Assembly: GCF_002973535.1 (NCBI RefSeq)
Contig: NZ_PVEP01000001.1
Coordinates: 1 to 64,000, forward strand
DNA length: 64,000 nucleotides
Direction of reading: 5' to 3'
Source of the DNA: Albidovulum denitrificans
GTDB taxonomy: Bacteria; Pseudomonadota; Alphaproteobacteria; Rhodobacterales; Rhodobacteraceae
This document shows, piece by piece, positions 2,761 through 18,575 of this stretch. Both the position numbers and the translations under genes were made by a program. Each line of letters begins with the position of its first letter. Position 1 is the stretch's first letter. The notes below the pieces were generated by a model. That model saw only the letters and a program-made list of their open reading frames with translations, was not told where the DNA came from and did not search any database.

Positions 2761-3438
2761 ATGGAAATGTCATCGCTTACGGCCCGTCAGCTTTTCGAGA
2801 ACGCGAAGGCCAACCCGACGCGCAAGCGTTTCGGCTTCGGCAGGAAGCCCATGCTCATCAACATCGACCTGCAATGCGCCTATACCTCGGTCGGCGAATT
2901 CGTGTCGGCCTATGAGACCGATCCGAAGCAGCTCGACTACGTCAACACGCTGTCCGGGCTGGCGCGGGCGAAGGGGCTGCCGCTGACCTGGACCTATGTG
3001 GCCTATATGCAATCGGGCGAGGATTGCGGCGTCTGGGGGACGCGCACCGACACGCCGGACTCGCTTCAGAACATCAAGGTCGGCTCCCGCCGGGCGGAAT
3101 TCGATCCGCGGCTGAAGATCGACCCGGTGAAGGACATCATCATCAACAAGCGCATGGCCTCGCCCTTTCATGAGACCAACCTGCAATCGCTGATGGTCTG
3201 GCATCAATGCGACACGGTGGTGCTGACGGGCGGCTCTACCTCGGGCTGCGTGCGCGCCTGCGTGGTCGATGCGATCTCGCGCGGCTACAGGGTGATCGTC
3301 CCCGAGGAATGCGTGGCCGACAAGCATGAAAGCCCGCATTTCGCCAATCTCTACGACATCTCGGTGAAATACGGCGATGTGATCCCGGTCAGCGAGGCGA
3401 TCGCCTGGTACGAGGCCTATCAACCCGAGGGCAAGTGA
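2761..3438 (+). CDS. Isochorismatase-family cysteine amidohydrolase (half-amidase candidate)
   Basis: 225 residues with the isochorismatase-like hydrolase fold and the triad Asp36 (INIDLQ), Lys130 (NKRMASPF) and Cys163 (GGSTSGCVRACVVDA). The Cys makes it an amide hydrolase like N-carbamoylsarcosine amidase or maleamate amidohydrolase rather than a true isochorismatase. ATG at 2761 follows an AGAGGAG ribosome site. It is the first gene of the operon and sits directly before two cyclic-amide-hydrolase-like genes, so hydrolysis of a half-amide (for example a maleamate or succinamate type compound) to the dicarboxylate plus ammonia is the likely job. The exact substrate is inferred. Confidence 0.85.
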   Translation: MEMSSLTARQLFENAKANPTRKRFGFGRKPMLINIDLQCAYTSVGEFVSAYETDPKQLDYVNTLSGLARAKGLPLTWTYVAYMQSGEDCGVWGTRTDTPDSLQNIKVGSRRAEFDPRLKIDPVKDIIINKRMASPFHETNLQSLMVWHQCDTVVLTGGSTSGCVRACVVDAISRGYRVIVPEECVADKHESPHFANLYDISVKYGDVIPVSEAIAWYEAYQPEGK

Positions 3439-3439
3439 G

Positions 3440-4378
3440 ATGGACGCCGCCAACGAAATCCGTTCCGACCTTGGTCTTTACGACTATCTGCCCTGGCCGG
3501 GGCGCCCGAAGATCACCTGGCCCGGCGGCAAGAAGCTTGCCGTCTGGATCGCGCCGAATATCGAGTTCTACGAATACGACCCGCCGAACAACCCGACCCG
3601 GACGCCCTGGGGACGGCCGAACCCCGACGTGCTGCAATATTCACACCGCGACTACGGCAACCGGGTCGGCTGGCGGCGGATGATGGCGGCGATGGATCGT
3701 GCGGGGTTTCGCGGCTCGGTCTCTCTCAACGTGGCGCTCTGCGATCACCACCCCGAGATCATCAAGGCCTGCGCGGATCGCGGGTGGGAGTTCTTTTCCC
3801 ACGGCATCTACAACACCCGCTATGTCTACAACATGACCGTGGAGCAGGAACGCGCGATCATCCGCGATGCCTTCGACACGGTGCGCAATCATACCGGGCA
3901 GGAACTGGCCGGCTGGCTGTCGCCTGCACTGTCGAACAACCTCTGGACCATGGACATCCTGGCCGAGGCGGGCATCCGGTACACCTGCGACATGTTCCAC
4001 GACGATCAGCCGATGCCGGTGAAGGTGAAAAGCGGCAGGCTGATCTCGATGCCCTATTCGCTCGAGATGAACGATGTCATCGTCTATAATAGCCAGAAGG
4101 TCACGCCCCGCCATTATGGCGAGATCATCAAGCGCCAGTTCGACCAGCTTTACCGGGATTCGGACGAAAGCGGCATGGTGATGTGCATTCCGCTGCACCC
4201 CTATCTGGTCGGCCAGCCGCACCGCATCGACGCCTTTGCCGAGGCGATCGACTATATCGCCGGACATGACGGCGTGTGGCAGACCACCGGGCGCGAGATT
4301 GCCGAGGCCTATCACGAAAGCGGCGCCTATGACGCCATGACCGCGGCCATGGCCGCCCTGAAAGAGGGGACCCGCTGA
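3440..4378 (+). CDS. Polysaccharide-deacetylase-fold hydrolase, PuuE allantoinase / cyclic imidase type (1)
   Basis: 312 residues of the NodB/PuuE fold. Visible family blocks are SHRDYGNRVGW (~residue 70), a SHGIYN segment (~120), the AGWLSPALS motif and a DMFHDDQPM block (~190). It lacks the TFDD motif of true chitooligosaccharide deacetylases, which fits PuuE allantoinase and imidase-type relatives that open cyclic amide or imide rings. Its ATG overlaps nothing but begins one base after the amidohydrolase stop, and its stop overlaps the next start (TGATG). With the neighbouring amidase, a ring-opening step giving a half-amide is likely. Substrate unknown. Confidence 0.8.
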   Translation: MDAANEIRSDLGLYDYLPWPGRPKITWPGGKKLAVWIAPNIEFYEYDPPNNPTRTPWGRPNPDVLQYSHRDYGNRVGWRRMMAAMDRAGFRGSVSLNVALCDHHPEIIKACADRGWEFFSHGIYNTRYVYNMTVEQERAIIRDAFDTVRNHTGQELAGWLSPALSNNLWTMDILAEAGIRYTCDMFHDDQPMPVKVKSGRLISMPYSLEMNDVIVYNSQKVTPRHYGEIIKRQFDQLYRDSDESGMVMCIPLHPYLVGQPHRIDAFAEAIDYIAGHDGVWQTTGREIAEAYHESGAYDAMTAAMAALKEGTR

Positions 4379-5304
4379 TGCCGCCGCTTCCCGAAAGCTA
4401 TCTTGATTACCCGGCGCGTCATTATGGCATGGATCAGGACCGCTACGACTGGTCCGACATGTTCGCGCGCAAGCCGGTCGTCTGGCCGGACGGGGCGCGG
4501 GTGGCGCTGTCCATCGTCACCCACGTGCAGCATTTCCCGCTCGACATGCCGGCCAAGCCCTTCAAGGCCCCCGGCGCGCTGTCGATGCCCTACCCGGATT
4601 TCCGCTACTTCACCAATCGCGACTATGGCAACCGCGTCGGCATCTTCCGGGTGCTGAAGCTTTTGGCGGCCAAGGGGCTGCGGACGAGTTTCGCCATCAA
4701 CGGCTGCATCGCCGAACGCTATCCGGCGCTGCTGCGCGCGGTGGTCGAGGGCGGTCATGAGGTGGTGGCGCATGGCCTTGACATGGGCAAGGTCCATCAC
4801 TCCGGTCTGGGCGCCGCGGAGGAGGATGCCATCGTCGCCGAAGCGCTGCGGCTTCTGCGCGAGGGGTCGGGCCAGAAGGTCGCGGGCTGGCTCTCGCCCG
4901 GCCGTGCGCAAGGGTTCAGCACGCCAGAGATTCTGGTGAAGAACGGTGTGCAATGGTGTCTCGACTGGGCCAATGACGACCTGCCCTATGAGATGCGCAC
5001 CGACAAAGGGCCGCTTCTGGCGATGCCGCTGGCCTATGAGACCGACGACCGCGTCGTTTCGAACGAATATTTCCAGTCGGAACCGGACTGGGTGCAGCAG
5101 GTCAAGGACCGCTTCGACGTCCTGTACCGCGAAAGCGGCGATTTCGGCGGCCGGGTGATGAGCGTGCCGCTGCACAGCTGGGTGTCCGGCATGCCCTATC
5201 GCGTCGAATACCTGCGCGAGGTGCTGGACTACATCCTTTGCCATTCCGGCGTCTGGGTAGCCCCGGCGGGCGAGATCGCCGAGGCGTTTCGCAAGCAGGC
5301 CTGA
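4378..5304 (+). CDS. Polysaccharide-deacetylase-fold hydrolase, PuuE/imidase type (2)
   Basis: 308 residues, a diverged paralogue of the preceding protein. Shared blocks are FTNRDYGNRVGIFR, VVAHGLDMG, the AGWLSPGRAQ motif, NDDLPYE and VMSVPLHSWVSG. The first ~60 residues resemble those of the neighbour (W-P-G/D with a YDYLPW/YDWSDM type entry). Start ATG overlaps the upstream stop. Two such genes side by side could form a heteromer or act on two related rings. The SPLHSWVSG/PLHPYLVG block near the C-terminus is the usual conserved His segment of this family. Deacetylation of a polysaccharide is unlikely because there is no signal peptide. Confidence 0.8.
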   Translation: MPPLPESYLDYPARHYGMDQDRYDWSDMFARKPVVWPDGARVALSIVTHVQHFPLDMPAKPFKAPGALSMPYPDFRYFTNRDYGNRVGIFRVLKLLAAKGLRTSFAINGCIAERYPALLRAVVEGGHEVVAHGLDMGKVHHSGLGAAEEDAIVAEALRLLREGSGQKVAGWLSPGRAQGFSTPEILVKNGVQWCLDWANDDLPYEMRTDKGPLLAMPLAYETDDRVVSNEYFQSEPDWVQQVKDRFDVLYRESGDFGGRVMSVPLHSWVSGMPYRVEYLREVLDYILCHSGVWVAPAGEIAEAFRKQA

Positions 5305-5316
5305 CGCGCCCTTCAT

Positions 5317-5342
5317 GCCGCGCGCCCGCAAGGGCGCGCGGC
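5317..5342 (+). other. Strong hairpin with GCAA tetraloop between imidase-like and hydratase genes
   Basis: An 11-bp perfect stem (GCCGCGCGCCC, 5317-5327, with its complement at 5332-5342) closes a GCAA loop, the GNRA type that is especially stable in RNA. No T-run follows, so it looks more like an mRNA processing or stabilising element than a terminator. Confidence 0.7.
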
Positions 5343-5380
5343 CCGTGCCAAGACGAGAGACAAGCACAGGAACACCCCGC

Positions 5381-6793
5381 ATGGCGCAAGCGACCGCCCC
5401 CGCAGCACGAACCCTGTTCGGAAAGATCTGGGACGCGCATGAGATCCTGCGCCACCCCTCCGGCCAGTCGCTGCTTTATATCGACCGCGACATGATCCAC
5501 GAGGGCAGCTTTCACGCCTTCGCGGACCTCAGGCGCCGGGGCCTGCATCCGCGTCGGCCAAAGCAGATCTTCGGCATTGCGGATCATTATGTGCCGACGC
5601 TTGGCCGCAGCGCGGATGCGGCCGCCAGCCCCGCCATCGCACGGATGATCCGCACCTTCGATGAGAACATGGAATGGGGCGATGTGCGCCATTTCGGGCT
5701 GGAAAGCCGCGAACAGGGCATCGTGCATGTGGTCGCGCCCGAACAGGGGATCACGCTGCCGGGCCTGACCATCGTCTGCTCTGACAGCCATACCTCAACC
5801 CAGGGCGCGCTTGGCGCCATCGCCTTTGGCATCGGCCAGTCGGAGAATGCGCATGTGCTGGCGACGCAGACGCTTTGGCAGATGCGCCCGAAGACGATGC
5901 GCGTGACCGTCGGGGGCGTCCTTGGCCAGGGTGTGACGGCGAAGGATGTCGTTCTTGCGCTGATTGCGAAGATCGGCGCGGCGGGGGCAGGGGGCCATGC
6001 CATCGAATATGCCGGCCCCGTGGTGCGCGCGATGTCGATCGAGGCGCGGCTGACGCTGTGCAACATGTCCATCGAGGCGGCGGCGCGGCTGGGCATGGTT
6101 GCGCCCGACGACACGACCTTCGACTATGTGAAGGGCAGGCCCTATGCGCCCGAGGCCGCCGAATGGGACCGCGCGCTGGCCGGGTGGCGGCAACTGCCCA
6201 CCGATGAAGGCGCGCAGTTCGACCGCGAGGTGGTTCTGGACGGCACCGCCATCGCGCCGATGGTGACCTGGGGAACCAGCCCCGAGGATGCCGTGCCGAT
6301 CACCGGCCGGGTCCCCGATCCGGCGGGCTTTGCCAGCGCCGAAAAGCGCAAGGCGGCGGCGAAGTCGCTGGACTACATGGACCTTGCCCCCGGCACCGCG
6401 CTGGACGGGCTGAAGATCGACCGCGTGTTCATCGGCTCCTGCACCAACAGCCGGATCGAGGATCTGCGCGCGGCGGCGGCGGTCCTGAAGGGGCGCAAGG
6501 CCACGGTCCCCGCCATCGTCGTTCCCGGCTCCACCCGCGTGCGTGAGCAGGCCGAGGCCGAAGGGCTGGCCAGGACCTTCCGCGAGGCCGGGTTCGAATG
6601 GCGCCATTCGGGCTGTTCGATGTGCGCGGCGATGAACGGCGATGTGGCCGCGCCGGGCGAACGCTGCGCCTCGACCTCGAACCGCAACTTCGTCGGCCGT
6701 CAGGGGCCGGGGGCGCGGACCCATCTCCTCAGCCCGGCAATGGCGGCGGCGGCGGCGATTGCGGGCCATCTGACCGATGTGCGTCGGCTGTGA
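5381..6793 (+). CDS. Aconitase-family hydratase large subunit (LeuC-like; dimethylmaleate/3-isopropylmalate type)
   Basis: 470 residues, the large subunit of an aconitase-superfamily (de)hydratase. The [4Fe-4S] ligands are visible as Cys354 (GSCTNSR), Cys412 and Cys415 (GCSMC). Other family blocks are SDSHTSTQGALGA and FGIGQSE near 140-160. ATG at 5381 begins the alignable region; the frame is open further upstream but has no family sequence. The small subunit follows at once. In a catabolic operon with a PEP-mutase-family lyase, the pair resembles dimethylmaleate hydratase (DmdAB) or a maleate/citraconate hydratase more than leucine biosynthesis. A biosynthetic LeuCD cannot be excluded from sequence alone. 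Confidence 0.85.
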   Translation: MAQATAPAARTLFGKIWDAHEILRHPSGQSLLYIDRDMIHEGSFHAFADLRRRGLHPRRPKQIFGIADHYVPTLGRSADAAASPAIARMIRTFDENMEWGDVRHFGLESREQGIVHVVAPEQGITLPGLTIVCSDSHTSTQGALGAIAFGIGQSENAHVLATQTLWQMRPKTMRVTVGGVLGQGVTAKDVVLALIAKIGAAGAGGHAIEYAGPVVRAMSIEARLTLCNMSIEAAARLGMVAPDDTTFDYVKGRPYAPEAAEWDRALAGWRQLPTDEGAQFDREVVLDGTAIAPMVTWGTSPEDAVPITGRVPDPAGFASAEKRKAAAKSLDYMDLAPGTALDGLKIDRVFIGSCTNSRIEDLRAAAAVLKGRKATVPAIVVPGSTRVREQAEAEGLARTFREAGFEWRHSGCSMCAAMNGDVAAPGERCASTSNRNFVGRQGPGARTHLLSPAMAAAAAIAGHLTDVRRL

Positions 6794-6806
6794 AGGGAAA
6801 GATCGC

Positions 6807-7421
6807 ATGAAAGCCTTCCTCCGCGAAACCTCTCCCGTCGTCGTGATCCCCGGCGTGAATTGCGACACCGACCAGATCATCCCCGCCCGCTTTCTCAAAG
6901 AGGACCGCGCGAAGGGCTATGACGGGTTTCTGTTCCACGACATCAGCCGCGACGCCGCGGGAAACCCCGATCCCGCCTTTCCGCTGAACCGCCCCGGCGC
7001 CGACAGGGCGACGATCCTGTTGGTCGAGGATAATTTCGGCTGCGGTTCCTCGCGTGAGGCGGCGGTCTATGCGCTGGTGGATCGCGGCATCCGCGCCGTG
7101 ATCGGGCCAAGCTTCGGCGACATCTTCTTCAACAACGCGCTGAAGAACGGGCTGGTGCCGGTGCGCCTGCCCGTCGCGCGGTGCGAGGCGCTGGAGGACT
7201 ATCTGGCGAAACACGACGGCGCCACCGTGACGGTGGATCTGGAGGCCGGGCAGCTGGTGCTGCCCGGCGCCCTGGGCCGCCACCCGATCGAGATCCCGTC
7301 CCTTGCGCGCGACTGCATCCTGCGTGGCCTCGACGAGATCGAGATGACCCTCACCTTCATGGAGCGCATCGAAAGCTTCGAGGCGGCGAGGATCGCAGAC
7401 AACCCGTGGCTGGGCCGCTGA
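6807..7421 (+). CDS. Aconitase-family hydratase small subunit (LeuD-like)
   Basis: 204 residues forming the swivelling small subunit. Family motifs are NCDTDQIIPARFLK near residue 20 and FGCGSSREAAVYALVDRGIRAVI near 75, which bind the substrate and contact the large subunit. ATG at 6807 is preceded by GGGAAAG. It lies 13 bases after the large subunit, so both are made together. The length matches LeuD/DmdB proteins. Together they would add water across the double bond of an unsaturated dicarboxylate; specificity is not readable by eye. Confidence 0.85.
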   Translation: MKAFLRETSPVVVIPGVNCDTDQIIPARFLKEDRAKGYDGFLFHDISRDAAGNPDPAFPLNRPGADRATILLVEDNFGCGSSREAAVYALVDRGIRAVIGPSFGDIFFNNALKNGLVPVRLPVARCEALEDYLAKHDGATVTVDLEAGQLVLPGALGRHPIEIPSLARDCILRGLDEIEMTLTFMERIESFEAARIADNPWLGR

Positions 7422-7479
7422 TGGCGGGCCAGTCGCAACAGCAAAGACCAATGACTGCTTGAAACAGGGAGTAAAGCGA

Positions 7480-8703
7480 ATGACCCATCACCTCAATCGT
7501 CGCAGCCTGCTGAAGGCTTCGGGCGCGCTGGCACTGGCCAGCGGGCTGGCGGCGCCGTCGATCCTGCGGGCGCAGGCCGCCACCGTGAAGGTCGGCATCC
7601 TCGAGCCGCTGACCGGCAACCTTGCCTATAACGGCACCCAATGCGTCGCCGGGGCCAAGTTCGCCGTCGAGGCGCTGAACGCCGCGGGCGGCATCAAGAG
7701 CATGGGCGGTGCCCAGATCGAGCTTGTCGTCGCCGATGCCCAAAGCCGCCCCGAGGTGGCCGCCGCCGCCGTCGATACGCTGGTCGAGGCCGGGGTCTGC
7801 GCCTTCACCGGCGCCACCGCTTCCTCGCTCGGTCTGGCCTCCACCCAGGCGGCTGCGAAATACAACCTTGCGCAGGTCGTCTCGATCGGCACCGCCGAGG
7901 CGATGGTGGAACGCGGTCTGCCGAACGTCTTCCGCTTCACCCCCGGCGTGAACAAATGCACCACGGTCGCGCTTGATAACCTGCGGCTCCTGAACGAGGG
8001 CGCGGGCAGCCCGGTCAAGACAGCCGCCATCGTGCATGAGGACGGCCCCTTCGGCTCTGGCATGGCCAAGATCCTGAACGAACGCCTGCCCGGCATCGGC
8101 ATCGAGGTGGTCGAGACGATCCAGCACCCGACGCCGCAGCGGGATTTCAACAACATCGCGCTGCGCGTCAAGGCATCGAAAGCCGACATCCTGATCCCGT
8201 CGAACTACATCAACGAATACACGCTGATGGCCAAGGCGATCCGCCAGCAGCGGGTGGAACTGATGGCGATCTACTCGATCCTCGGCGGCGCCGCCTCGAA
8301 CATCAAGTTCGTGCGCGAGAACAACGAGGTCGCGCAATATGTGATGGACTGCAACCACTGGTACGACCCGCAAAAGCCCGCCTCGGTCGCGCTGGCCGAA
8401 AACGTAGCGAAGGCCGGGCTGGACCTGACCTATGACGTGATGGTGGCCTATGCCTCGGTCCAGGTCATCGCCGACGCGCTTGAGCGGTCCGCCTCGGACG
8501 ACCGCGAGAAGATGATCGAGGCGCTTGCCGCCTCGACCTTCGACGGTTCGATCATGCCCTACGGGCCGACCAAGTTCGTCAACGGCGACAACGTGAACTC
8601 GCAGCCGGTGAACACCCAGATCCGCGGCGAGAAGATCGAGCTGGTCTTCCCGAAGGAATACGCGACCGCCGAGGCCGTGTTCCCGATGCCCAAAGAGGGC
8701 TGA
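7480..8703 (+). CDS. Liv-type ABC transporter periplasmic substrate-binding protein
   Basis: 407 residues of the periplasmic binding protein type 1 (Peripla_BP_6) family that serves branched-chain amino acid and amide/aromatic-acid importers. The N-terminus NRRSLLKASGALALASG has a twin-arginine signal (Arg7-Arg8) and an AxA-type cleavage near RAQAA. The mature part begins KVGILEPLTGNLAYNG, a typical first strand, and ends with KEYATAEAVFPMP. ATG at 7480 has a CAGGGAG ribosome site. It is followed by a strong hairpin and then by both permeases and both ATPases. The ligand is probably the imide or amide handled by the neighbouring enzymes. Confidence 0.9.
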   Translation: MTHHLNRRSLLKASGALALASGLAAPSILRAQAATVKVGILEPLTGNLAYNGTQCVAGAKFAVEALNAAGGIKSMGGAQIELVVADAQSRPEVAAAAVDTLVEAGVCAFTGATASSLGLASTQAAAKYNLAQVVSIGTAEAMVERGLPNVFRFTPGVNKCTTVALDNLRLLNEGAGSPVKTAAIVHEDGPFGSGMAKILNERLPGIGIEVVETIQHPTPQRDFNNIALRVKASKADILIPSNYINEYTLMAKAIRQQRVELMAIYSILGGAASNIKFVRENNEVAQYVMDCNHWYDPQKPASVALAENVAKAGLDLTYDVMVAYASVQVIADALERSASDDREKMIEALAASTFDGSIMPYGPTKFVNGDNVNSQPVNTQIRGEKIELVFPKEYATAEAVFPMPKEG

Positions 8704-8710
8704 CCCTTGC

Positions 8711-8747
8711 GGTCCCCGCCGATGGCAGAGTGCCATCGGCGGGGACC
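8711..8747 (+). other. 17-bp perfect stem-loop after the binding-protein gene
   Basis: The arm GGTCCCCGCCGATGGCA (8711-8727) is perfectly complementary to 8731-8747 around a 3-nt GAG loop. No T-run follows. Such hairpins between a binding-protein gene and its permease genes commonly protect the upstream mRNA or limit read-through, giving excess binding protein over membrane parts; here that role is inferred. Confidence 0.8.
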
Positions 8748-8783
8748 GTCCCCGGCCCGAGCCCGCAAGAGAGAGCCTTCGCT

Positions 8784-9656
8784 ATGTCCAGTCTGATCCT
8801 GCCGGCCGTGCTGAGCGGCCTGACGATGGGCGCCATCTATGCGCTTGTCGCCTTGGGGCTGACGCTCATCTACGGCGTCCTCCACATCATCAACTTCGCC
8901 CATGGCAGCCTGCTCATGCTGGCGCTCTATGCCGTCTATTTCCTGCATTTCTATCTGGGGATAGACCCCTACATCGCCATTCCGATCGTGCTGCCGGTGT
9001 TCTTCGTGCTTGGCTATGCGCTGCAACGCGGCCTCATCGCGCCGATGAGCAGCGGGTCGGAAACCAATGTGCTGCTGGTCACGCTGGCGCTGTCGCTGGC
9101 GATCGACAACCTCGCGCTTTATTTCTGGACGTCGAACACCCGCACCATCGACATCCCCTATGCCTATGACACGGTCGAGTTTCTGGGCGCCTATCTGCCG
9201 CTTGGCCGGGTGATCGCCTTCTTCGCCGCGCTGGCGGTGGCGCCGGTGCTGTGGCTTTTCATGGAACACACGCGGCTTGGCGCCTCGATCAAGGCCGTCG
9301 CCATCGAAAAGCGCGGGGCAGAGATCGTGGGCATCGACGTGAACCACGCCTATGCGGTCTGCTTCGGCATCGGCACCGCCTGCGTGGCGCTGGCCGCCTG
9401 CCTGCTGCTGCCGACCTTCTATGTCACGCCGCAGGTCGGCTATACCTTCGTGCTGGTCGCCTTTACCACCGTCGTTCTGGGCGGCATGGGCAGCCTGCCG
9501 GGGGCGCTGGTCGCGGGGCTGCTTCTGGGGGTGATTGAATCGCTCTGCGGGCTGTTTCTTGGCGAAAGCCTCGGCCAGATCGGTATCTTCCTCGCCTTCA
9601 TCCTGATCCTTCTGTTCAAGCCGTCCGGGCTTCTGGGGCGGGGGGTGAAGGCATGA
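8784..9656 (+). CDS. Branched-chain-type ABC transporter permease (LivH family)
   Basis: 290 residues with about eight hydrophobic segments and LivH hallmarks: GAIYALVALGLTLIYGVLHIINFAHG split at the N-terminus and AVAIEKRGAEIVGIDVNHAYAV, the coupling region, near 175. The C-terminus FKPSGLLGR is typical. ATG at 8784 was chosen because it starts the first membrane helix; upstream codons cross the hairpin. The stop overlaps the LivM-type start. It builds the inner-membrane channel of the Liv-type importer with the next gene. Confidence 0.9.
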   Translation: MSSLILPAVLSGLTMGAIYALVALGLTLIYGVLHIINFAHGSLLMLALYAVYFLHFYLGIDPYIAIPIVLPVFFVLGYALQRGLIAPMSSGSETNVLLVTLALSLAIDNLALYFWTSNTRTIDIPYAYDTVEFLGAYLPLGRVIAFFAALAVAPVLWLFMEHTRLGASIKAVAIEKRGAEIVGIDVNHAYAVCFGIGTACVALAACLLLPTFYVTPQVGYTFVLVAFTTVVLGGMGSLPGALVAGLLLGVIESLCGLFLGESLGQIGIFLAFILILLFKPSGLLGRGVKA

Positions 9657-10636: not shown

Positions 10637-11369
10637 GGTTCGCAACATCTCCAAAAGCTTCGGCGGCCTGAAGGCGGTCAGCGATGCCTCGCTGGACGTC
10701 CCCGAAGGGTCCATCGTGGCGCTGCTGGGGCCGAACGGCGCCGGCAAGACGACCTGCTTCACCATGATCGCGGGCTTCACGAAGCCCGACACCGGCACCG
10801 TGACCTTCCGCGGCGAGGACATCACCGGGCTGGCGCCGCACCAGATCTGCGCGCGCGGCATGATCCGTACCTTCCAGATCGTGCAGCCCTTCGCCGGGCT
10901 GACGGTCGAGGAAAACATCGCCGTCGGGGCCTATCTGCACCACCATGACCGGGCCGATGCGACGGCCCTCGCGCGCAAGGTGGGCAAGCAGCTTGGCATG
11001 GGCGGAATGCTTGACCGCCCCGCCGCCTCGCTGACCATCGCCGGGCGCAAGCGGCTTGAGCTTGCGCGGGCGCTGGCCACGGGGGCAAAGCTGCTGCTGC
11101 TGGATGAGGTGATGGCGGGGCTGATCCCGTCCGAGGTGACCGAGATCGTCGGCATCATCCGCCAGATCCGCGATGAGGGCCACACCATCCTGCTGATCGA
11201 ACATGTGATGCAGGCGGTGATGAGCCTCGCCGAGACGGCCTATGTGCTGAATTACGGCGAGATGATTGCCCATGCCCCGCCGAAGGAACTGGTTCAGGAC
11301 CCCGCCGTGATCGAGGCCTATCTGGGCCATGGCGCGGCGACCCGCTTGCAGGAGGGCGGCCATGCTTGA
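10629..11369 (+). CDS. Branched-chain-type ABC transporter ATPase (LivG family)
   Basis: 246 residues of ABC ATPase. Walker A is LGPNGAGKTTC near residue 36, the LivG-like insertion IRTFQIVQPFAGLTVEENIAVGA follows, and Walker B is LLLLDEVMAGL near 155. The signature is degenerate: LTIAGRKRLELARAL replaces the usual LSGGQQ form, as in many LivG proteins (YGxxRRLEIARAL). The C-terminal LivG tail is VIEAYLGHGA. It pairs with the next ATPase to drive the importer. Confidence 0.9.
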   Translation: MLEVRNISKSFGGLKAVSDASLDVPEGSIVALLGPNGAGKTTCFTMIAGFTKPDTGTVTFRGEDITGLAPHQICARGMIRTFQIVQPFAGLTVEENIAVGAYLHHHDRADATALARKVGKQLGMGGMLDRPAASLTIAGRKRLELARALATGAKLLLLDEVMAGLIPSEVTEIVGIIRQIRDEGHTILLIEHVMQAVMSLAETAYVLNYGEMIAHAPPKELVQDPAVIEAYLGHGAATRLQEGGHA

Positions 11370-12063
11370 GATTTCCGGGATCAAGGCGGGCTACGGCTCC
11401 ATGGCGGTGCTGCACGGCGTCGACATGCAGATCGGCGCGGGGGAGATCGTCGCGCTTCTGGGATCGAACGGCGTCGGCAAGACCACGCTGAACAACGTCA
11501 TCTCGGGCTTTATCCGTCCGACGGCGGGCACGGTCACCTTCGACGGCCAGCAGATCAGCGGGTGCAGGTCGCGCGACATCGTGGCCATGGGCATCGCGCA
11601 GGTACCCGAGGGGCGCAAGATCTTTCCCAACCTGACGGTGGCGGAGAACCTCGAACTGGGCGCGTTCCGCCGTGCGGCCGGGCATCGAAAGCAGAACTTC
11701 GAACGGATCTGCGGCATCTTCCCGCGCCTGCGCGAACGGCTGGGCCAGCTGGCCGGGACGCTGTCGGGGGGCGAACAGCAGATGCTGGCGATCGGGCGCG
11801 GCCTGATGTCGGAGCCGAAGCTGCTGATCCTCGACGAACCCTCGCTGGGCCTCTCGCCGATCCTGGTGGAGGAGATGTTCGACCTGATCGGCCATATCAA
11901 CGCCGATGGCATGTCGGTGCTGCTGGTGGAACAGAACGTGATGCAGTCGCTGAACGTCGCCAGCCGCGCCTATGTGCTGGAACAGGGACATATCGTCATG
12001 CAGGGCGACACCGCCGGCATGCTGAAGGACCCGCAACTGCGGCAGGTCTATCTGGGCCTCTGA
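11362..12063 (+). CDS. Branched-chain-type ABC transporter ATPase (LivF family)
   Basis: 233 residues. Walker A GSNGVGKTTL (near 38), the Q-loop region IAQVPEGRKIFPNLTVAENL, ABC signature LSGGEQQMLAIGRGL (near 137) and Walker B LLILDEPSLGLSP are all intact. The tail LRQVYLGL is the usual LivF ending. ATG at 11362 overlaps the end of the LivG-type gene. It is the last transporter gene; a GC-rich hairpin follows before the lyase gene. Confidence 0.9.
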   Translation: MLEISGIKAGYGSMAVLHGVDMQIGAGEIVALLGSNGVGKTTLNNVISGFIRPTAGTVTFDGQQISGCRSRDIVAMGIAQVPEGRKIFPNLTVAENLELGAFRRAAGHRKQNFERICGIFPRLRERLGQLAGTLSGGEQQMLAIGRGLMSEPKLLILDEPSLGLSPILVEEMFDLIGHINADGMSVLLVEQNVMQSLNVASRAYVLEQGHIVMQGDTAGMLKDPQLRQVYLGL

Positions 12064-12073
12064 CGCTCCCCGC

Positions 12074-12097
12074 GCCGGGCCGCCCGACTGGCCCGGC
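12074..12097 (+). other. GC-rich hairpin between LivF-type and lyase genes
   Basis: GCCGGGCC (12074-12081) pairs with GGCCCGGC (12090-12097) around an 8-nt loop. No T-run follows. It is one of several stem-loops separating functional blocks of this operon. Confidence 0.55.
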
Positions 12098-12122
12098 CGT
12101 CAAACAGGAAACGGAGAATGAA

Positions 12123-13016
12123 ATGTCCCTGACACGCACAGCCCGCCTGCGCAAAGCCCTTGGAGGCGAACGGGCGATCATGGCCCCCGGCGTCGTGGAT
12201 GCGATGTATGCCCGCCTGGTGGCCGAGGCCGGGTTTGACGCTATGTACATGACCGGGGCCGGGACATCGGCCACGCGGCTCGGCTATCCCGATGTGGGCC
12301 TGCTGACGATGACCGAGATGGTGGACAACGCCACCCGCATCGCCGATGCCTCGGACGTGCCGCTGATCGCGGATGCCGATAACGGCTATGGCGGGCCGCT
12401 GAACGTGCGCCGCGCGATCCAGCAATACGAACGCGGCGGCATCGCGGCGGTGCATCTGGAAGACCAGGTGCTGCCCAAGCGCTGCGGCCATCTTGCGGGC
12501 AAGCAACTGATTTCCGCGGCCGATATGGTCGCCAAGGTGAAGGCGGCGGTGGATGCGCGGATCGACCCGGATTTCGTGGTCATCGCCCGCACCGATGCGC
12601 TGGCGCTTCACGGCCGCAACGCCGCCTTCGACCGTGCCGAGATGTATCGTGAGGCCGGGGCCGACGTGATCTTCGTCGAGAGCCCGCTGGCCGAGGACCT
12701 GCCCCATATCGCGCCGCGCTTCCCCGGCGTGCCGCTGCTTTACAACATGGCAACCTCTGGCAAGACCCCGTTCCTGACCCGGAGTGAGATCGAGAAGCTG
12801 GGCTTCAAGCTTATCATCTATCCCAACTGGCTCCTCCTGTCGGCCTGCGAGGCGGCGCGCAAGACGCTCGAGGTGATGAAAAACGAGGAATCCATCGCCT
12901 CGGTCGCGCCGCAGGTGATGAGCTTCAGGCAGTTCTTCGACACCGCCCGCATGGCCGAGGTGCAGGAACTTGAGGCCCGCTATGGCACGCCCGAGGAAAG
13001 CCGCACGGGATACTGA
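12123..13016 (+). CDS. PEP mutase / isocitrate lyase family C-C lyase (methylisocitrate/dimethylmalate lyase type)
   Basis: 297 residues of a TIM-barrel lyase. Conserved parts are the ADADNGYG metal site (Asp85, Asp87), HLEDQ (Glu113-Asp114), and the mobile loop PKRCGH, where Cys121 is the catalytic residue of true lyases rather than phosphonate-forming mutases. It would cleave a 2-hydroxy (or 2-methyl) substituted malate-type product into a 2-oxoacid and a short acid. Next to an aconitase-like hydratase this resembles 2,3-dimethylmalate lyase. Methylisocitrate lyase or oxaloacetate decarboxylase activities are alternatives. The ribosome site is GGAAACGGAG. Confidence 0.85.
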   Translation: MSLTRTARLRKALGGERAIMAPGVVDAMYARLVAEAGFDAMYMTGAGTSATRLGYPDVGLLTMTEMVDNATRIADASDVPLIADADNGYGGPLNVRRAIQQYERGGIAAVHLEDQVLPKRCGHLAGKQLISAADMVAKVKAAVDARIDPDFVVIARTDALALHGRNAAFDRAEMYREAGADVIFVESPLAEDLPHIAPRFPGVPLLYNMATSGKTPFLTRSEIEKLGFKLIIYPNWLLLSACEAARKTLEVMKNEESIASVAPQVMSFRQFFDTARMAEVQELEARYGTPEESRTGY

Positions 13017-13024
13017 AAATAACG

Positions 13025-13052
13025 GGCGCGCGGCCCGACCCGCGTGCCTTTT
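13025..13052 (+). terminator. Terminator-like hairpin with T-run after the lyase gene
   Basis: GGCGCGCGG (13025-13033) pairs with CCGCGTGCC (13040-13048), one G-T wobble, six-base loop, followed by TTTT. This is the form of an intrinsic terminator, yet the next gene starts only 19 bases later, so it may act as a partial terminator (attenuator) within the operon. Confidence 0.6.
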
Positions 13053-13071
13053 CGTTGAAGGGGGATCGCAG

Positions 13072-14472
13072 ATGGCCGTTCTGTCAGCCGAAGACGTGGA
13101 ATTCGATTATGTGGTGCCGGTCGTGGTGGTCGGCGCCGGGGCCTGTGGCCTGACCGCCGCGCTGGCCGCGCATGACGCGGGCCAGGAGGTGATGATCCTT
13201 GAACGCGACGAAAGCCCGCGCGGCTCCACCTCGCTCTCCGCCGGTCTGATCCCGGCCGCGGGGACGATGCTGCAAAAGGCGGCGGGGATCGAGGACAGCG
13301 CCGATCTCTTCGCCGCCGATCTGGTCGCCAAGACCCATGATCACACGCCCCCCGACATGGCGATGGTCGCCGCGAAAACCTCCGGCCCGATGATCGACTG
13401 GCTGATCCGCGATCACGGGATCGAGCTGGAGCTTGTCACCGGCTTTCTCTATCCCGGCCATTCGCGGATGCGTATGCACGGCCCGAAAAGCCGCACCGGC
13501 GCCGATCTGGAACAGGCGCTGCTCTCGGCGGTGTCGGCGGGCGGGATCGACCTGATCTCCGGTGCCTCGGTCGAGGATCTGTATGCAGATGCCGACGGGC
13601 GGGTGACGGGCCTGCGCTTTCGCCGCCCCGACGGTGCGCTGGAAACGCTGGGCTGCGCCGCGCTGGTTCTGGCCTGCTGCGGTTTCGCGGGCGATGCCGC
13701 CATGGTGCGCGACTATATCCCCGAAATCGCCGATGCCGAATGTTGCGGGCATATGTCCAACACCGGCGACGCGGTGAAATGGGGTCTCGCGCTTGGCGCG
13801 ACGGTGGCGGATATGGGCGCCTATCAGGGCCACGGCTCGGTCGCGCATCCCCATTCGCTTCCCTTGACCTGGGCGGCGATCACCCAGGGCGGGATACTGG
13901 TCAATACCGACGGCCACCGCTTTTCGAACGAGATGCGCGGCTATTCCGAACATGGTGCCGAGGTCGCGGCGCAGCCGGGTCATGTCGCCTGGGACATCTT
14001 CGACGCAAGGGCAGAGGAAGCCGCGCTCGGCTTTCACGACTATCGTGAGATCCGCAAGCTCGGCGCGGTGAAAAGCGCCGATACGGTGGAGGAACTGGCC
14101 GAGGTCACGGGCCTGCCCTTCGAGGCGCTGCAAGCCGAGCTTGACGCGATCGCCGCCGCCGCCGAAAGCGGCGCGCCGGACCGCTTCGGTCGCCGGTTTG
14201 CCCGCGATCTGCTGCTGCAAGCGCCCTGGCGCGCCGTCAAGGTGAACGGCGCGCTGTTTCACACGCAGGGCGGGCTGGTCATCGACCACGATGCCCGCGT
14301 GCTGGGCAAGGACGGGACGCCGCTGCCGAACCTGATGGCGGGCGGGGGCGCCGCGCGCGGCCTCTCGGGCGATTCCAACTACGGCTATCTGTCGGGCAAC
14401 GGTCTTTTGTCGGCGACGGCCTTCGGGCGCCTTGCCGGGATCAGCGCCGCACGCATCGCGGCAGGGGCATGA
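13072..14472 (+). CDS. FAD-dependent oxidoreductase, fumarate reductase / 3-ketosteroid dehydrogenase-like flavoprotein
   Basis: 466 residues. The N-terminal dinucleotide-binding motif VVVVGAGACGLTAALAA and ERDESPRGSTSLSAG match the FRD/SdhA-type FAD-binding family, and the C-terminal GGGAARGLSGDSNYGYLSGNGLLSATAFGR block closes the FAD domain (split here around the GN). ATG at 13072 follows GAAGGGGGA. No signal peptide or haem domain is present, so it is a soluble cytoplasmic enzyme. It could reduce or desaturate a C4-dicarboxylate-like intermediate made by its neighbours. The exact reaction is unknown. Confidence 0.82.
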   Translation: MAVLSAEDVEFDYVVPVVVVGAGACGLTAALAAHDAGQEVMILERDESPRGSTSLSAGLIPAAGTMLQKAAGIEDSADLFAADLVAKTHDHTPPDMAMVAAKTSGPMIDWLIRDHGIELELVTGFLYPGHSRMRMHGPKSRTGADLEQALLSAVSAGGIDLISGASVEDLYADADGRVTGLRFRRPDGALETLGCAALVLACCGFAGDAAMVRDYIPEIADAECCGHMSNTGDAVKWGLALGATVADMGAYQGHGSVAHPHSLPLTWAAITQGGILVNTDGHRFSNEMRGYSEHGAEVAAQPGHVAWDIFDARAEEAALGFHDYREIRKLGAVKSADTVEELAEVTGLPFEALQAELDAIAAAAESGAPDRFGRRFARDLLLQAPWRAVKVNGALFHTQGGLVIDHDARVLGKDGTPLPNLMAGGGAARGLSGDSNYGYLSGNGLLSATAFGRLAGISAARIAAGA

Positions 14473-14509
14473 AGACCGGCAGGGCCGGTGCAGGAAACGG
14501 AGGAAATGA

Positions 14510-15283
14510 ATGAAGAAGGTCATGGTGATCGTTCCCTTCCCGATGGGGAAGGAGGACCTCGCGCGCCGTGAGGCGCAGATGAAGGCGGTCGATCTGGGGC
14601 CGGGGATCGCGTTCCACTATCGCCCCGTGCGGGTGGGGCCGAAGAACTATTCCAGCCAGCATGACATGGCGCTGGCGGACTTCTCGATCCTCGATGCCGG
14701 GCTCGATGCCGAGAAGGAGGGGTTCGACGCGGTCTGCATCGACACGATGTCCGACAGCGGCATGTCGATGCTGCGCTCGGTGCTGACGATCCCGGTCATC
14801 GCGCCGGGGCGGCACGCGATGCTGGTGGCGCAGATGCTGGGCGACAAGTTCTCTGTCCTGATGATGTGGGACCGCTGGAAGATGCTCTACACCAAGACGC
14901 TGGGAGAGCTGGGGATGGAACATAAATGCGCCTCCATGCGCTCCATCGGGGTGACGCCGGACAACAAGTCGCTCTTGTCGGGCAAGGAGGATGAGGTGTT
15001 TCCGCTTCTCCTGGCGGCGGCGCGGAAATGCATCGACGAGGATGGCGCGCAGGTCCTGATCCTTGGCTCCACCACCATGCACGAGGCGCATCAGTGGCTG
15101 GCCGAGCGGGTCGGCGTTCCGGTCATCAATCCCGGCCCGCTGACCTACAAGCTTGCCACCATCGCGCTGGACCTGAACCTGACCCATTCGAAAGAGACAT
15201 GGCCCGCGCCGCTGGAGCCCAAGCATGACATGATCCGTGCCATCGGCGCCGCCGGGGCCGCATTTCTGGAGGGCCGCCAATGA
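14510..15283 (+). CDS. Asp/Glu-racemase-superfamily protein (1), canonical cysteines replaced
   Basis: 257 residues of the PF01177 fold that includes hydantoin racemase, maleate isomerase and aspartate racemase. The two active-site loops are VCIDTMSDSG (residues 75-84) and LGSTTM (185-190). By comparison with the CxxDPG and GCxxM loops of hydantoin racemase, Thr79 and Ser187 occupy the catalytic cysteine places; Cys76 is nearby but not aligned. ATG at 14510 has a GGAGG site. It is followed by a paralogue with a four-base overlap. A cis-trans isomerase, racemase or non-redox lyase role on a diacid or imide is possible. Confidence 0.75.
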   Translation: MKKVMVIVPFPMGKEDLARREAQMKAVDLGPGIAFHYRPVRVGPKNYSSQHDMALADFSILDAGLDAEKEGFDAVCIDTMSDSGMSMLRSVLTIPVIAPGRHAMLVAQMLGDKFSVLMMWDRWKMLYTKTLGELGMEHKCASMRSIGVTPDNKSLLSGKEDEVFPLLLAAARKCIDEDGAQVLILGSTTMHEAHQWLAERVGVPVINPGPLTYKLATIALDLNLTHSKETWPAPLEPKHDMIRAIGAAGAAFLEGRQ

Positions 15284-16050
15284 CCCGTATCCTGGTGATC
15301 GTTCCCTTCGCGCTGGATGCCGAAGGGGTAAGGAACCGCGAGGCGCAGTCGGGCTATGTGCCGCTGCCCGCCGATTGGCAATTGACCTATCGCCCGGTGA
15401 CCTGCGGGCCGACCTCATTCATGTCGCCGCATGACTGGGGGCTGATGGACATGGCCATCTTCGAGGCCGGTTGCACCGCCCAGCAGGAAGGCTTCGACGC
15501 GGTCTGCATCGACACGATGTCCGACAGCGGCATGGTGATGCTGCGCTCGGTCCTCGATATTCCGGTGATCGGGGCGGGCAAGGCCTCCATGCTCTACGCG
15601 CTGACGCTGGGGGGGCGGTTTTCGGTGCTGGCGCAGTGGAAACCGGCGCTGCCGCGCTATCGCAAGGCGATCCGCGAATACGGGTTCGACCGGCAATGCG
15701 CCTCGGTCCGCAGCTTCGACCAGCCACCGGATTTCTCCAACCTCATCACCGGGAAAGAGGACAAGGTCTTTCCGAAGATGCGCGATGTGGCGATGCGCTG
15801 CATCGAGGAGGACGGGGCAGAGGTGATCTGCCTCGGTTCCACCACCATGCATCAAGCGGGGGAATATCTGGCCCAACATCTGCCGGTGCCGGTCGTCAAT
15901 CCGGGGCCGCTGACCTACAAGCTGGTCGAGACCTTCCTGGCCCTCGGCCTTCGCCACGGGCGCGAGGCCTATCCCGCGCCGGTAGAGCCGCGTCTGGAGA
16001 TGCTTGGCGCGATGATGAAGGCGGGCGCGGCCGCCGTCGCGAAGGGCTGA
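15280..16050 (+). CDS. Asp/Glu-racemase-superfamily protein (2), paralogue
   Basis: 256 residues, clearly homologous over the full length to the preceding protein: the same IVPF start, an identical VCIDTMSDSGM loop, KEDxVFPxMxxxAxxCIxEDGA, LGSTTMH and PVxNPGPLTYKL. The canonical two-cysteine pair is likewise missing (Thr and Ser at those places). ATG overlaps the upstream stop (ATGA), so both are made together and a hetero-oligomer is likely. Conservation of the same substitution in both copies argues it is functional, not decay. Confidence 0.75.
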   Translation: MTRILVIVPFALDAEGVRNREAQSGYVPLPADWQLTYRPVTCGPTSFMSPHDWGLMDMAIFEAGCTAQQEGFDAVCIDTMSDSGMVMLRSVLDIPVIGAGKASMLYALTLGGRFSVLAQWKPALPRYRKAIREYGFDRQCASVRSFDQPPDFSNLITGKEDKVFPKMRDVAMRCIEEDGAEVICLGSTTMHQAGEYLAQHLPVPVVNPGPLTYKLVETFLALGLRHGREAYPAPVEPRLEMLGAMMKAGAAAVAKG

Positions 16051-16055
16051 CCCCC

Positions 16056-17468
16056 GTGGCCGGGGCCGCGGAAAGGCTGGCGCAGGCCGCCGCGCAGGGC
16101 GATTTCGCGGCGGCGCCCGCCCCGGTGCGGGCGGCGTATCGCGATTTCCTGCTCGACACCGTCGCGGTGATGGCGGCCGGCGCGGCGCATGGCACGCTGG
16201 CTCCGGTCCGCGCCGCGATCGTGGCCAGCGGCGGCGCGGGCCCGGCATCGGCCGCCGGATGCGCGCAGGGCGTTCCCGCCGGGATCGCCGCGCTGGTCAA
16301 CGGCATGGCGATGACGGTCCTGCAACTTCAGGACGGCCACCGCCGCGCGCGCGGCCATCCGATGAGCCATGTCCTGCCCGCAGCGCTCGCCGTGGCAGAG
16401 GAAACCGGCGCCGACGCGCCCGCCTTCCTGAACGCGGTCATGGCGGGGTATGAGGTTTCGGCCCGCATCGGGGCGTCACTGGGCGGGATGCAGCCCCTGC
16501 TGCACGACACCGGCACCTTCGGCTCTATCGGCGCGGCGGTGGCGGCGGCGCATCTTTTTGCCCGCGACAGCGCTACCGGCACCCGCGCCCGGCTGATTGC
16601 GGATACCATCGGCAATGCCGCCGCCGTGGCGCTGTTTCCCTTCCGCGATACCTGCATGGAAGGCGCGGGCGCGCATCACCTGTTCGTTGGCCTTGGCACG
16701 CAGAACGGCGTGATGGCGGCGCGGGCTGCGCTGGCGGGGCTGACGCCATCGCCCGACACGCTGGAACGGTTCTTCGGCCCGAGGGCGGGGGAGGGCTTCG
16801 TGCCGGACCAGCTCTGCGACGGGATTGGCGCGGATGGCACCTGGTCGCGGCATGAGATCCTTTCGGCCTATCTGAAATGGCACCCGGTCTGCGCCCATCT
16901 TGGCCCGATGCTTGATTGTATCGAGGCGCTGCGGGCGCGCCACGGCGGGTTCGATCCTGCCCGGATCGCCGCTGTCCGGGTGGAGACCTACGCGACCGCG
17001 CTGGACTACGACGCGCCCGATCCGCGTTCGGACCTGGCGGCGCGGTTCAGCTTCCGCCATGCGGCGGCACTGGCGCTGTGCTTCGGGCCGCTGCGCCATG
17101 ACGGATTTTCCCCCCGGCGTCTGGCCAGCGCGGCGGTGCGCGCGATGGCCGCGCGCGTCACGCTGGCCGTCGATCCCGGCCTCGACGCGCTTTATCCCGC
17201 CAGTCGGCCGGGGCGTGTCACGCTGGGCTTCACTGACGGGCAACAGGTCAGCGCCGAGGTGCGGGTGCCGAAGGGCGACGGTCCGAACCCGTTGCCGCGC
17301 GCGGATGTGAACCGCAAGGCCCGCACGCTGATAGGGGCGGCCTGGGCCGACCCCGCCCATTTCGACGGGATCGCCCGCCTGCTGGACCGGGTCGAGGCCA
17401 CGCCGCCCGCCGACCTGCCGCAGGCACTGGGCCGCCTTCTGCGTTCCCCCTTCGCGCCTTCGTCCTGA
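16056..17468 (+). CDS. MmgE/PrpD family protein (2-methylcitrate dehydratase-like)
   Basis: 470 residues from GTG at 16056, which is the first start after the upstream stop. MmgE/PrpD features are the all-helical N-domain with DTVAVMAAG, LQLQDGHRRARGHP near 90-105 (the family D-H pair) and the C-terminal lid domain with VETYATALDYD and DVNRKARTL. Members dehydrate 2-methylcitrate, epimerise iminodisuccinate or decarboxylate cis-aconitate. As the last gene of a dicarboxylate operon it probably acts on a hydroxylated or substituted diacid. The gene is unusually rich in Ala/Arg codons, as is the rest of the operon. Confidence 0.8.
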   Translation: MAGAAERLAQAAAQGDFAAAPAPVRAAYRDFLLDTVAVMAAGAAHGTLAPVRAAIVASGGAGPASAAGCAQGVPAGIAALVNGMAMTVLQLQDGHRRARGHPMSHVLPAALAVAEETGADAPAFLNAVMAGYEVSARIGASLGGMQPLLHDTGTFGSIGAAVAAAHLFARDSATGTRARLIADTIGNAAAVALFPFRDTCMEGAGAHHLFVGLGTQNGVMAARAALAGLTPSPDTLERFFGPRAGEGFVPDQLCDGIGADGTWSRHEILSAYLKWHPVCAHLGPMLDCIEALRARHGGFDPARIAAVRVETYATALDYDAPDPRSDLAARFSFRHAAALALCFGPLRHDGFSPRRLASAAVRAMAARVTLAVDPGLDALYPASRPGRVTLGFTDGQQVSAEVRVPKGDGPNPLPRADVNRKARTLIGAAWADPAHFDGIARLLDRVEATPPADLPQALGRLLRSPFAPSS

Positions 17469-18500: not shown

Positions 18501-18575
18501 CGCGATCATGCCGGGTGAAATTTCATAAGATGGCGGACCATGATCCTGCGCCCCTGTCAATGGCTTTCCACCAGC

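Follow-up and report, generated by a model that had tools for sequence, protein, structure and literature searches.

A candidate pathway for alkyl-branched cyclic imides in a likely operon of Albidovulum denitrificans

Which compound is degraded by the products of a run of 15 uninterrupted genes in Albidovulum denitrificans, in which putative ring-opening hydrolases, an amidase, a hydratase, a carbon–carbon lyase and an importer follow one another? The genes occupy positions 2761–17468 on the forward strand of the window analysed here, viz. the 64,000 nucleotides that open a 1.17 Mb contig (NZ_PVEP01000001.1) of a 4.1 Mb genome. Their open reading frames overlap or are spaced by fewer than 80 bases on one strand, which makes a single transcription unit likely, and hence the 15 genes likely form one operon. 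The gene order is CSH, PuuE1, PuuE2, AcnL, AcnS, five Liv-type transport genes, a lyase, a flavoprotein, Rac1, Rac2 and a MmgE/PrpD protein. An original prediction had described a one-strand gene set with its own Liv-type importer that would convert a cyclic imide by way of a half-amide, a dicarboxylate and a hydroxy acid into a 2-oxoacid and a short acid; all of the genes that it named are open on the forward strand, and the Pfam assignments agree with it. Our analyses give about an even chance to the reading that the operon serves the catabolism of a cyclic imide with an alkyl-branched succinate skeleton, for which methylsuccinimide or a close homologue would be the best fit.

The conserved trio of an amidase and two PuuE-like proteins

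The first three genes encode CSH (2761..3438; forward strand, as are all coordinates given below without a sign), PuuE1 (3440..4378) and PuuE2 (4378..5304). CSH is a cysteine-type amidase of the isochorismatase family (Pfam Isochorismatase) and a putative half-amidase, whose best PDB match is N-carbamoylsarcosine amidohydrolase (26st, E 6.6e-33). Its residues D36, K130 and C163 are near-invariant in an alignment of 74 relatives (this alignment, and those of 44 lyase and 36 hydratase sequences referred to below, excluded proteins with less than 35% identity or with a length outside 0.8–1.25 times that of the window protein). We take these residues to be the Asp-Lys-Cys catalytic triad of isochorismatase-superfamily amidases, and CSH thus carries the triad expected of the N-carbamoylsarcosine amidase/half-amidase group.

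PuuE1 and PuuE2, both assigned to Polysacc_deac_1 in Pfam, had been predicted to be two ring-opening hydrolases. In PuuE1, a putative imidase, E42 is retained in 73 of 74 sequences, and H121, D188, D189, N211, D212 and H253 in all 74; this pocket of Glu, His, Asp-Asp, Asn-Asp and His aligns with that of 3cl6 and 1z7a, as is characteristic of the PuuE/cyclic imidase fold. The diverged paralogue PuuE2 has such a pocket only in part. Of 70 sequences, 52 have Gln at the position aligned with E42, 15 have Glu, 2 Gly and 1 Asp; His is present in 53 and absent in 17 of the 70 at each of two His positions, and Asn211 is replaced by Glu, Asp or Ser, with the Asp positions retained. Two PuuE-like genes are therefore present as predicted, but the second is most simply read as a subunit that would form a heteromer with PuuE1 and would itself be altered or non-catalytic. 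Plain allantoin degradation is rejected, since both proteins score far under the cut-off of the allantoinase PuuE model TIGR03212 (117.8 bits for PuuE1 and 120.5 bits for PuuE2, against 424.6 bits). According to the available part of its description, the A. nidulans protein HxnM shares 64% identity with an imidase homologue from P. putida and is a cyclic imidase with a PuuE-related fold (PMC9304392), which indicates that a PuuE-type fold is capable of imide chemistry.

A scan of contigs with a four-sequence PuuE1 alignment has identified at least 585 relatives, and the best 80 loci (numbered with the prefix L) were analysed, genes being counted by tblastn. Twenty-five of these loci are shorter than 20 kb, so that truncation by the contig accounts for part of the absences; in view of the close kinship of many loci, the counts do not represent independent events. 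CSH is present in 78 and PuuE2 in 77 of the 80, and in 75 of them CSH, PuuE1 and PuuE2 follow one another on the same strand; the three genes constitute a conserved trio. The order from CSH to the flavoprotein is shared by 13 other loci (two plasmids counted), 12 of which (L036–L048, L050; Rhizobiaceae-like genomes, Paracoccus and their kin) show 68–93% identity per gene, and this recurrence indicates that the association of the genes is not due to chance. Among the matches listed, the closest copies of the operon are found in Paracoccus and Rhizobiaceae-like genomes. Within the window's own order, 36 of 292 sampled genomes (its own included) have a PuuE1 match with E 1e-40 or better, and only one further genome (G098) has a close PuuE1 (60%), with the trio also present there. 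This patchy distribution suggests that the operon has spread by horizontal transfer.

The downstream enzymes and the proposed pathway

The trio is followed by the large and small subunits of a LeuCD-like hydratase, viz. AcnL (5381..6793, inferred start codon; Pfam Aconitase) and AcnS (6777..7421; Aconitase_C), together referred to as AcnLS. AcnL scores 640 bits against the LeuC model TIGR00170 (cut-off 560.25 bits) and AcnS 159.7 bits against the leuD model. The AcnL residues C357, C415 and C418 (numbered from base 5372), which we take to be the ligands of a [4Fe-4S] cluster, are near-invariant in 36 relatives. In the AcnL tree, 38 operon rows (including the very long-branched L061 and L078, whose placement is not trusted) are separated from 30 housekeeping LeuC proteins by one branch (support 95/92), and hence the window protein does not group with the LeuC of leucine synthesis.

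The next five genes encode a Liv-type importer consisting of a LivK-type substrate-binding protein (7459..8703; Peripla_BP_6), the LivH-type and LivM-type permeases (8730..9656 and 9653..10636; both BPD_transp_2) and the LivG-type and LivF-type ATPases (10629..11369, ABC_tran and BCA_ABC_TP_C; 11362..12063, ABC_tran, inferred start codon).

The lyase (12123..13016; PEP_mutase) belongs to the isocitrate lyase (ICL)/PEP-mutase superfamily, and it is a putative alkylmalate lyase. Its best PDB match is 2,3-dimethylmalate lyase (3fa3, E 3.1e-63); against the PrpB model it scores 275 bits, under the cut-off of 354.4 bits, and it lies outside the 8 PrpB rows in the lyase tree. Residues D84, D86, E113, C121, G122 and H123 are near-invariant in 44 sequences, with C121 located in the motif KRCGH. 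By analogy with the superfamily, the Asp and Glu residues presumably bind the metal and the Cys of the KRCGH loop is presumably catalytic, so that the lyase has both features expected of a carbon–carbon lyase of this superfamily. F184 and P234, which are also near-invariant, are taken by us to be marks of pyruvate-releasing methylisocitrate-type lyases as opposed to isocitrate lyase, and the residue after N208 is Met and not the Ser that we assume to mark oxaloacetate hydrolases. The Cys-type amidase, the aconitase-family pair and the PEP-mutase-family lyase with its Cys have thus been borne out at the level of near-invariant residues. In the lyase tree, the cluster label requires 8 changes, at least 4 of them forced by well-supported branches, which suggests that the lyase slot was recruited from several branches of the superfamily; some rows of this tree may represent neighbouring genes outside the pathway, e.g., the PrpB-like ones of L078 and L093.

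The flavoprotein (13072..14472; FAD_binding_2) is a member of the fumarate reductase/TcuA family and a putative alkylsuccinate dehydrogenase, this direction being only proposed. It is closest to soluble fumarate reductases, with flavocytochrome c fumarate reductase as its match (1d4c, E 4.2e-54). The alignment places Tyr and Asn/Tyr at two Arg positions of 1d4c and shows two His residues to be retained. We take the two Arg to be the catalytic and substrate-binding residues of fumarate reductase, and the window protein thus lacks the Arg pair of that enzyme. The MmgE/PrpD protein (16056..17468, GTG start inferred; MmgE_PrpD N and C domains), a putative alkyl-dicarboxylate isomerase or hydratase, has IDS-epimerase (2hp0) as its best PDB match, with cis-aconitate decarboxylase also near.

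Rac1 (14510..15283) and Rac2 (15280..16050), tandem paralogues that are 52% identical, had been predicted to be racemase-fold proteins. The fold is confirmed (both are assigned to Asp_Glu_race), but both racemase Cys residues are missing: where hydantoin racemase 3qvj has Cys, Rac1 and Rac2 have Thr79 and Ser187, and neither carries the two catalytic Cys of the Asp/Glu/hydantoin racemases. A survey of 38 distinct genes from the compared loci, the window's two included, found Thr/Ser at these positions in 28 and Ser/Ser in 2 of the 30 relatives with at least 45% identity; among the 8 more distant relatives, both Cys are found in one and only the second Cys in two. Classical amino-acid or hydantoin racemase activity is rejected for Rac1 and Rac2 on the basis of the absence of the catalytic Cys, and a Cys-independent reaction must be assumed for them. 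Rac-like genes frequently occur in tandem. Such pairs, without both Cys and with the motifs DT(M/V)SDSG and LGSTTMH, are seen at 14510–16050 of the window and in L160, L161 and L163–L166, and two genomes of one family (G319 and G449) have 7 Rac1 matches each.

From the observed genes, families, conserved residues and gene associations, we infer a pathway whose substrate, order and individual reactions would be as follows. The Liv-type importer would take up the substrate, and PuuE1, perhaps as a heteromer with PuuE2, would open its ring to give a half-amide, which CSH would hydrolyse with release of ammonia to give a dicarboxylate. Stereochemistry or the position of a double bond would be adjusted by the MmgE/PrpD protein, perhaps together with Rac1 and Rac2. 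The flavoprotein would oxidise the alkylsuccinate to an alkylmaleate, e.g., citraconate; AcnL/AcnS would hydrate this to an alkylmalate, e.g., citramalate; and the ICL-family lyase would cleave the alkylmalate, releasing pyruvate as the 2-oxoacid together with acetate as the short acid, or with propionate in the case of a dimethyl homologue. No pyridoxal phosphate enzyme has been found among the operon genes of the window by Pfam, which favours an imide as the substrate.

Alternative enzyme sets and step replacements

The enzymes that accompany the trio differ between loci. In the best 80 loci, the lyase family is found in 46, AcnL in 37, AcnS in 34 and the flavoprotein in 33, and a CoA-transferase is found in 19, an acyl-CoA dehydrogenase in 20, and RipB-like, RipC-like and HMG-CoA-lyase-like (HMGL-like) genes in 7, 8 and 8, respectively. 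We have distinguished three downstream sets: set a (flavoprotein, AcnL and ICL-family lyase, as in the window), set b (CoA-transferase, RipB-like and RipC-like proteins) and set c (CoA-transferase and HMGL-like protein), which are complete in 28, 7 and 7 loci, respectively. Set a overlaps with neither b nor c (Fisher P 0.0015, calculated on non-independent loci). Its gene order is also variable. Besides the window type (13 other loci), there is a compact type from Halomonas, Marinobacter and Saccharospirillum (15 loci) with divergent AcnLS, a GntR gene and mostly a TRAP importer, and further orders are found in L052, in L111 (weaker) and in L120, a Burkholderia plantarii plasmid.

Set b is accompanied by an acyl-CoA dehydrogenase in all 7 loci. 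In one of these (L099), the proteins score best, among NCBIfam models, as RipB/Ich (247.9 bits) and RipC/Ccl (244.4 bits). The available part of a recent report describes the conversion of methylsuccinate to pyruvate and acetyl-CoA by an acyl-CoA dehydrogenase, a MmgE/PrpD isomerase, Ict, Ich and Ccl; this type of dehydrogenase, to which that of set b belongs, uses methylsuccinyl-CoA as its substrate (PMC12290011). The gene combination of a Pseudosulfitobacter plasmid equals the five methylsuccinate genes of the same portion of that report (PMC12290011), and the MaoC and acyl-CoA dehydrogenase proteins of this plasmid are 64% and 57% identical, respectively, to their L099 counterparts. The likeness of set b to the methylsuccinate pathway ties the trio to an alkylsuccinate and favours a saturated imide. 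A succinimide-type ring is likewise favoured over maleimide because the flavoprotein, or in set b the acyl-CoA dehydrogenase, implies a desaturation. A third PuuE-like gene (about 27–29% identical to PuuE1 where measured) is seen beside CoA enzymes in L072, L078, L086, L093, L099, L103 and L104.

Individual steps of the proposed pathway are also replaced at some loci. In Neorhizobium petrolearium (L161), HyuB, HyuA and an isochorismatase-family hydrolase stand in place of PuuE1, PuuE2 and CSH, flanked by a Liv importer, PrpD, lyase, flavoprotein, Rac1 and Rac2, and no PuuE or AcnLS match is found within the 28.7 kb compared. Tistrella mobilis has an importer, two PrpD proteins, the lyase, an annotated tautomerase (no Pfam match), the flavoprotein, Rac1 and Rac2, with no trio within the 24.7 kb compared. 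The trio, flavoprotein, lyase and PrpD are present in L062, where AcnLS is absent in the stretch compared; PrpD is similarly present where AcnLS is absent in L160 and L161. In B. plantarii, the LeuCD-type hydratase is replaced by one that exceeds the cut-offs for the HacA/LeuD-DmdB subfamilies (529.6 and 143.5 bits). These comparisons support the view that the replacements (HyuAB, the HacA/LeuD-DmdB hydratase, PrpD and the CoA-level enzymes) would preserve the same pathway logic. The predicted chain from imide to 2-oxoacid thus gains support from gene association and step replacement, its substrate and order remaining conjectural.

Several other settings of the trio have been observed. In L033, L039, L095 and L113, the trio (CSH 46–53%) lies beside a molybdopterin oxidoreductase, a FAD oxidoreductase and amidases, and the Salipiger plasmid L039 also has HyuAB, a sulfurtransferase and a cystathionine beta-lyase, perhaps pointing to a sulfur-containing substrate. 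In L056, L057, L060 and L067, it lies beside aminotransferase-, GlnB- and glutamine synthetase-like genes (the last two assigned by eye); these neighbours would fit either ammonia release or a housekeeping neighbourhood.

Competing substrates, genomic setting and known systems

A number of observations weigh against an alkylsuccinimide-type substrate. No complete set a, b or c is present in 38 of the 80 loci. An HMGL-like gene accompanies set a in L111, a CoA-transferase and an acyl-CoA dehydrogenase lie next to set a in L044, L045 and L120, and AcnLS occurs together with CoA-transferase and HMGL in the plasmids L121 (Acidiphilium), L122 and L124 (Sphingomonas/Sphingobium), the last two of which also have the lyase; the three sets are alternatives in the main and not strict exclusives. 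The RipB-like and RipC-like proteins of L099 fall under the equivalog cut-offs of 340 and 375 bits. Desaturation by the flavoprotein is not certain, because both Arg of 1d4c are replaced. Lastly, the nearest PDB relatives of CSH and PuuE1 are ureide enzymes (N-carbamoylsarcosine amidase and allantoinase, respectively), and some loci of marine alphaproteobacteria have aminotransferases in the vicinity of the trio (F32 in six, F57 in four).

The last two points would suit a hydantoin or another ureide as the substrate, which the PuuE proteins would open to an N-carbamoyl acid; CSH would then remove the carbamoyl group, and a branched amino-dicarboxylate such as methylaspartate would be degraded after loss of its amine. 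The family names suit hydantoin or ureide chemistry no worse than imides, HyuAB takes the place of PuuE in one operon, and Rac1 and Rac2 have a fold of the hydantoin racemase type. Creatinine and hydantoin are known to be degraded by N-methylhydantoinase (HyuAB) and N-carbamoylsarcosine amidase, likewise a ring opener and an isochorismatase-family amidase, and it is this type of ring opener that replaces the PuuE pair in L161. However, the downstream genes of the window, unlike those of that route, handle dicarboxylates and not amino acids, and sets a, b and c all process free dicarboxylates. No aminotransferase or ammonia-lyase family is present in the window operon or, as far as their genes are annotated, in the compact clusters L120, L160 and L161, and the low allantoinase scores of both PuuE proteins and the missing racemase Cys also argue against a ureide. 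Because an amine-removing enzyme is lacking and all of the downstream sets are of dicarboxylate type, we retain the imide as the preferred substrate and consider a hydantoin rather unlikely.

An unsaturated (alkyl)maleimide, e.g., from tetrapyrrole breakdown, with another role for the flavoprotein (e.g., in a reduction or in the conversion of a side product), is in our view an unlikely substrate. An alkylmaleate would be a direct substrate for AcnLS together with a lyase whose closest match is dimethylmalate lyase, and 3 of the 80 loci (L053, L058 and L061) have the lyase and AcnL with no flavoprotein in the stretch compared. Against this, the flavoprotein accompanies all 28 complete set a loci (by definition), and the acyl-CoA dehydrogenase of set b (7 of 7) represents a desaturation step, so that the saturated ring fits better than the maleimide named in the original prediction. 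The haem or chlorophyll origin that it proposed has found no support: there is no tetrapyrrole-handling gene among the families examined, and no bacterial pathway for ethylmethylmaleimide or hematinic acid in the open-access literature, among the matches listed.

It is improbable that the operon instead completes the breakdown of a larger N-heterocycle, with the imide as an intermediate and the genes for the earlier steps at other sites of the genome. The trio of marine gammaproteobacteria and Sphingomonas plasmids lies among oxidases, alpha/beta hydrolases, DUF1838, VOC, methyltransferase and further genes, as such a reading would expect; however, the dedicated importer of the window and the compact Halomonas/Marinobacter type with its TRAP importer (15 loci) suggest that the imide itself, or a compound close to it, is imported. 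In the marine gammaproteobacterial loci and Sphingomonas plasmids (L090, L098, L109, L111, L114–L116, L122 and L124), the recurring genes are a 240-aa family (F18, no Pfam match), DUF1838, VOC, cupin, methyltransferase-like, FAD-linked oxidase, nitrilase and aldehyde dehydrogenase genes, suggestive of a longer pathway; the extra genes of the marine trio clusters gave no hint of an upstream substrate.

Leucine or branched-chain amino acid metabolism, in which AcnLS would be LeuCD and the Liv-type importer would carry leucine, would account for the leuC name that NCBIfam gives to AcnL, but it is rejected as highly improbable on the basis of the separate, typical LeuC on contig C13 of the same genome (792 bits) and the position of the operon AcnL proteins in the tree, and no LeuA or LeuB homologue is present among the operon genes (Pfam).

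Convergent to the operon lies a GntR/UTRA (HutC-type) regulator gene (17730..18560, −; Pfam GntR and UTRA), which probably regulates it; this gene also adjoins the operon in Rhizobium rhizoryzae (L037, 74%) and is found upstream of it in L051 and L053. It is followed by a 3-hydroxyacyl-CoA-dehydrogenase-family gene (18576..19514, −; 3HCDH_N and 3HCDH), also present in L037 (66%), whose product is possibly accessory to the pathway. By eye, a LuxR-type regulator gene (19627–20415, −) separates these neighbours from a polyamine-type ABC importer, and a recombinase-like gene (314–1915, −) is the immediate upstream neighbour of the operon, at the start of the contig, which would fit horizontal acquisition. 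A scan found 6 promoter-like sites (2.3 expected), one of them at 2648–2677 upstream of CSH, and 10 terminator-like sites (8.6 expected); these are not used as evidence.

The proposed imide pathway shares parts with several known systems. Nicotinate fermentation in Eubacterium barkeri employs dimethylmaleate hydratase (DmdAB) and 2,3-dimethylmalate lyase, i.e., an aconitase-family hydratase and an ICL-family lyase that convert an alkylmaleate in two consecutive steps, as proposed here; in contrast, the hydratase of the window is LeuCD-like and not HacA/DmdB, the other E. barkeri enzymes are absent, and the relatives are aerobic. Bacterial cyclic-imide metabolism by an imidase and a half-amidase is known from P. 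putida YZ-26 and Blastobacter. These enzymes and the fungal HxnM share with the window the PuuE-like imidase fold and the sequence of imide, half-amide and dicarboxylate, but HxnM is paired with an unrelated amidase, HxnN, in the available part of its description (PMC9304392). In the methylsuccinate/itaconate cluster Ict-Ich-Ccl-Mcd-Msi, as far as the available part of that report describes it, a branched C5 dicarboxylate is likewise desaturated, hydrated and cleaved to pyruvate and a C2 unit; the cluster also has a MmgE/PrpD isomerase, and set b homologues of its CoA-transferase, hydratase, lyase and acyl-CoA dehydrogenase adjoin the trio (PMC12290011). In comparison with this portion of the report, the window would rely on unrelated enzymes (a flavoprotein and members of the aconitase and ICL families) that act on free acids, and would add ring opening and amide hydrolysis in front (PMC12290011). 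Neither a PuuE1-PuuE2-CSH cluster nor methylsuccinimide catabolism has been described in the open-access literature, among the matches listed (subscription papers and preprints lie outside this scope).

If the proposed pathway is correct, it would add a complete and portable route of imide degradation to bacterial metabolism, it would explain the recurrence of the trio across genera that include Rhizobium, Paracoccus, Halomonas, Marinobacter and Luminiphilus, and it would represent a free-acid counterpart to the CoA-dependent methylsuccinate route. The public annotation names of these enzymes (viz. allantoinase, polysaccharide deacetylase, 3-isopropylmalate dehydratase and racemase) are probably misleading. 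According to the discussion in the available part of that report, the source of methylsuccinate in the environment had until recently been unclear, and imides are not proposed for this role in the portions covered (PMC12290011); the operon would provide one answer to this question. More tentatively, the trio may be a general bacterial gateway that brings natural alkylsuccinimide-type imides into methylsuccinate-type metabolism by means of a heteromeric PuuE imidase and plug-in free-acid or CoA routes. Imides would in that case be an overlooked source of branched C5 dicarboxylates, and the Cys-less racemase-fold pair could represent a new kind of isomerase in some lineages.

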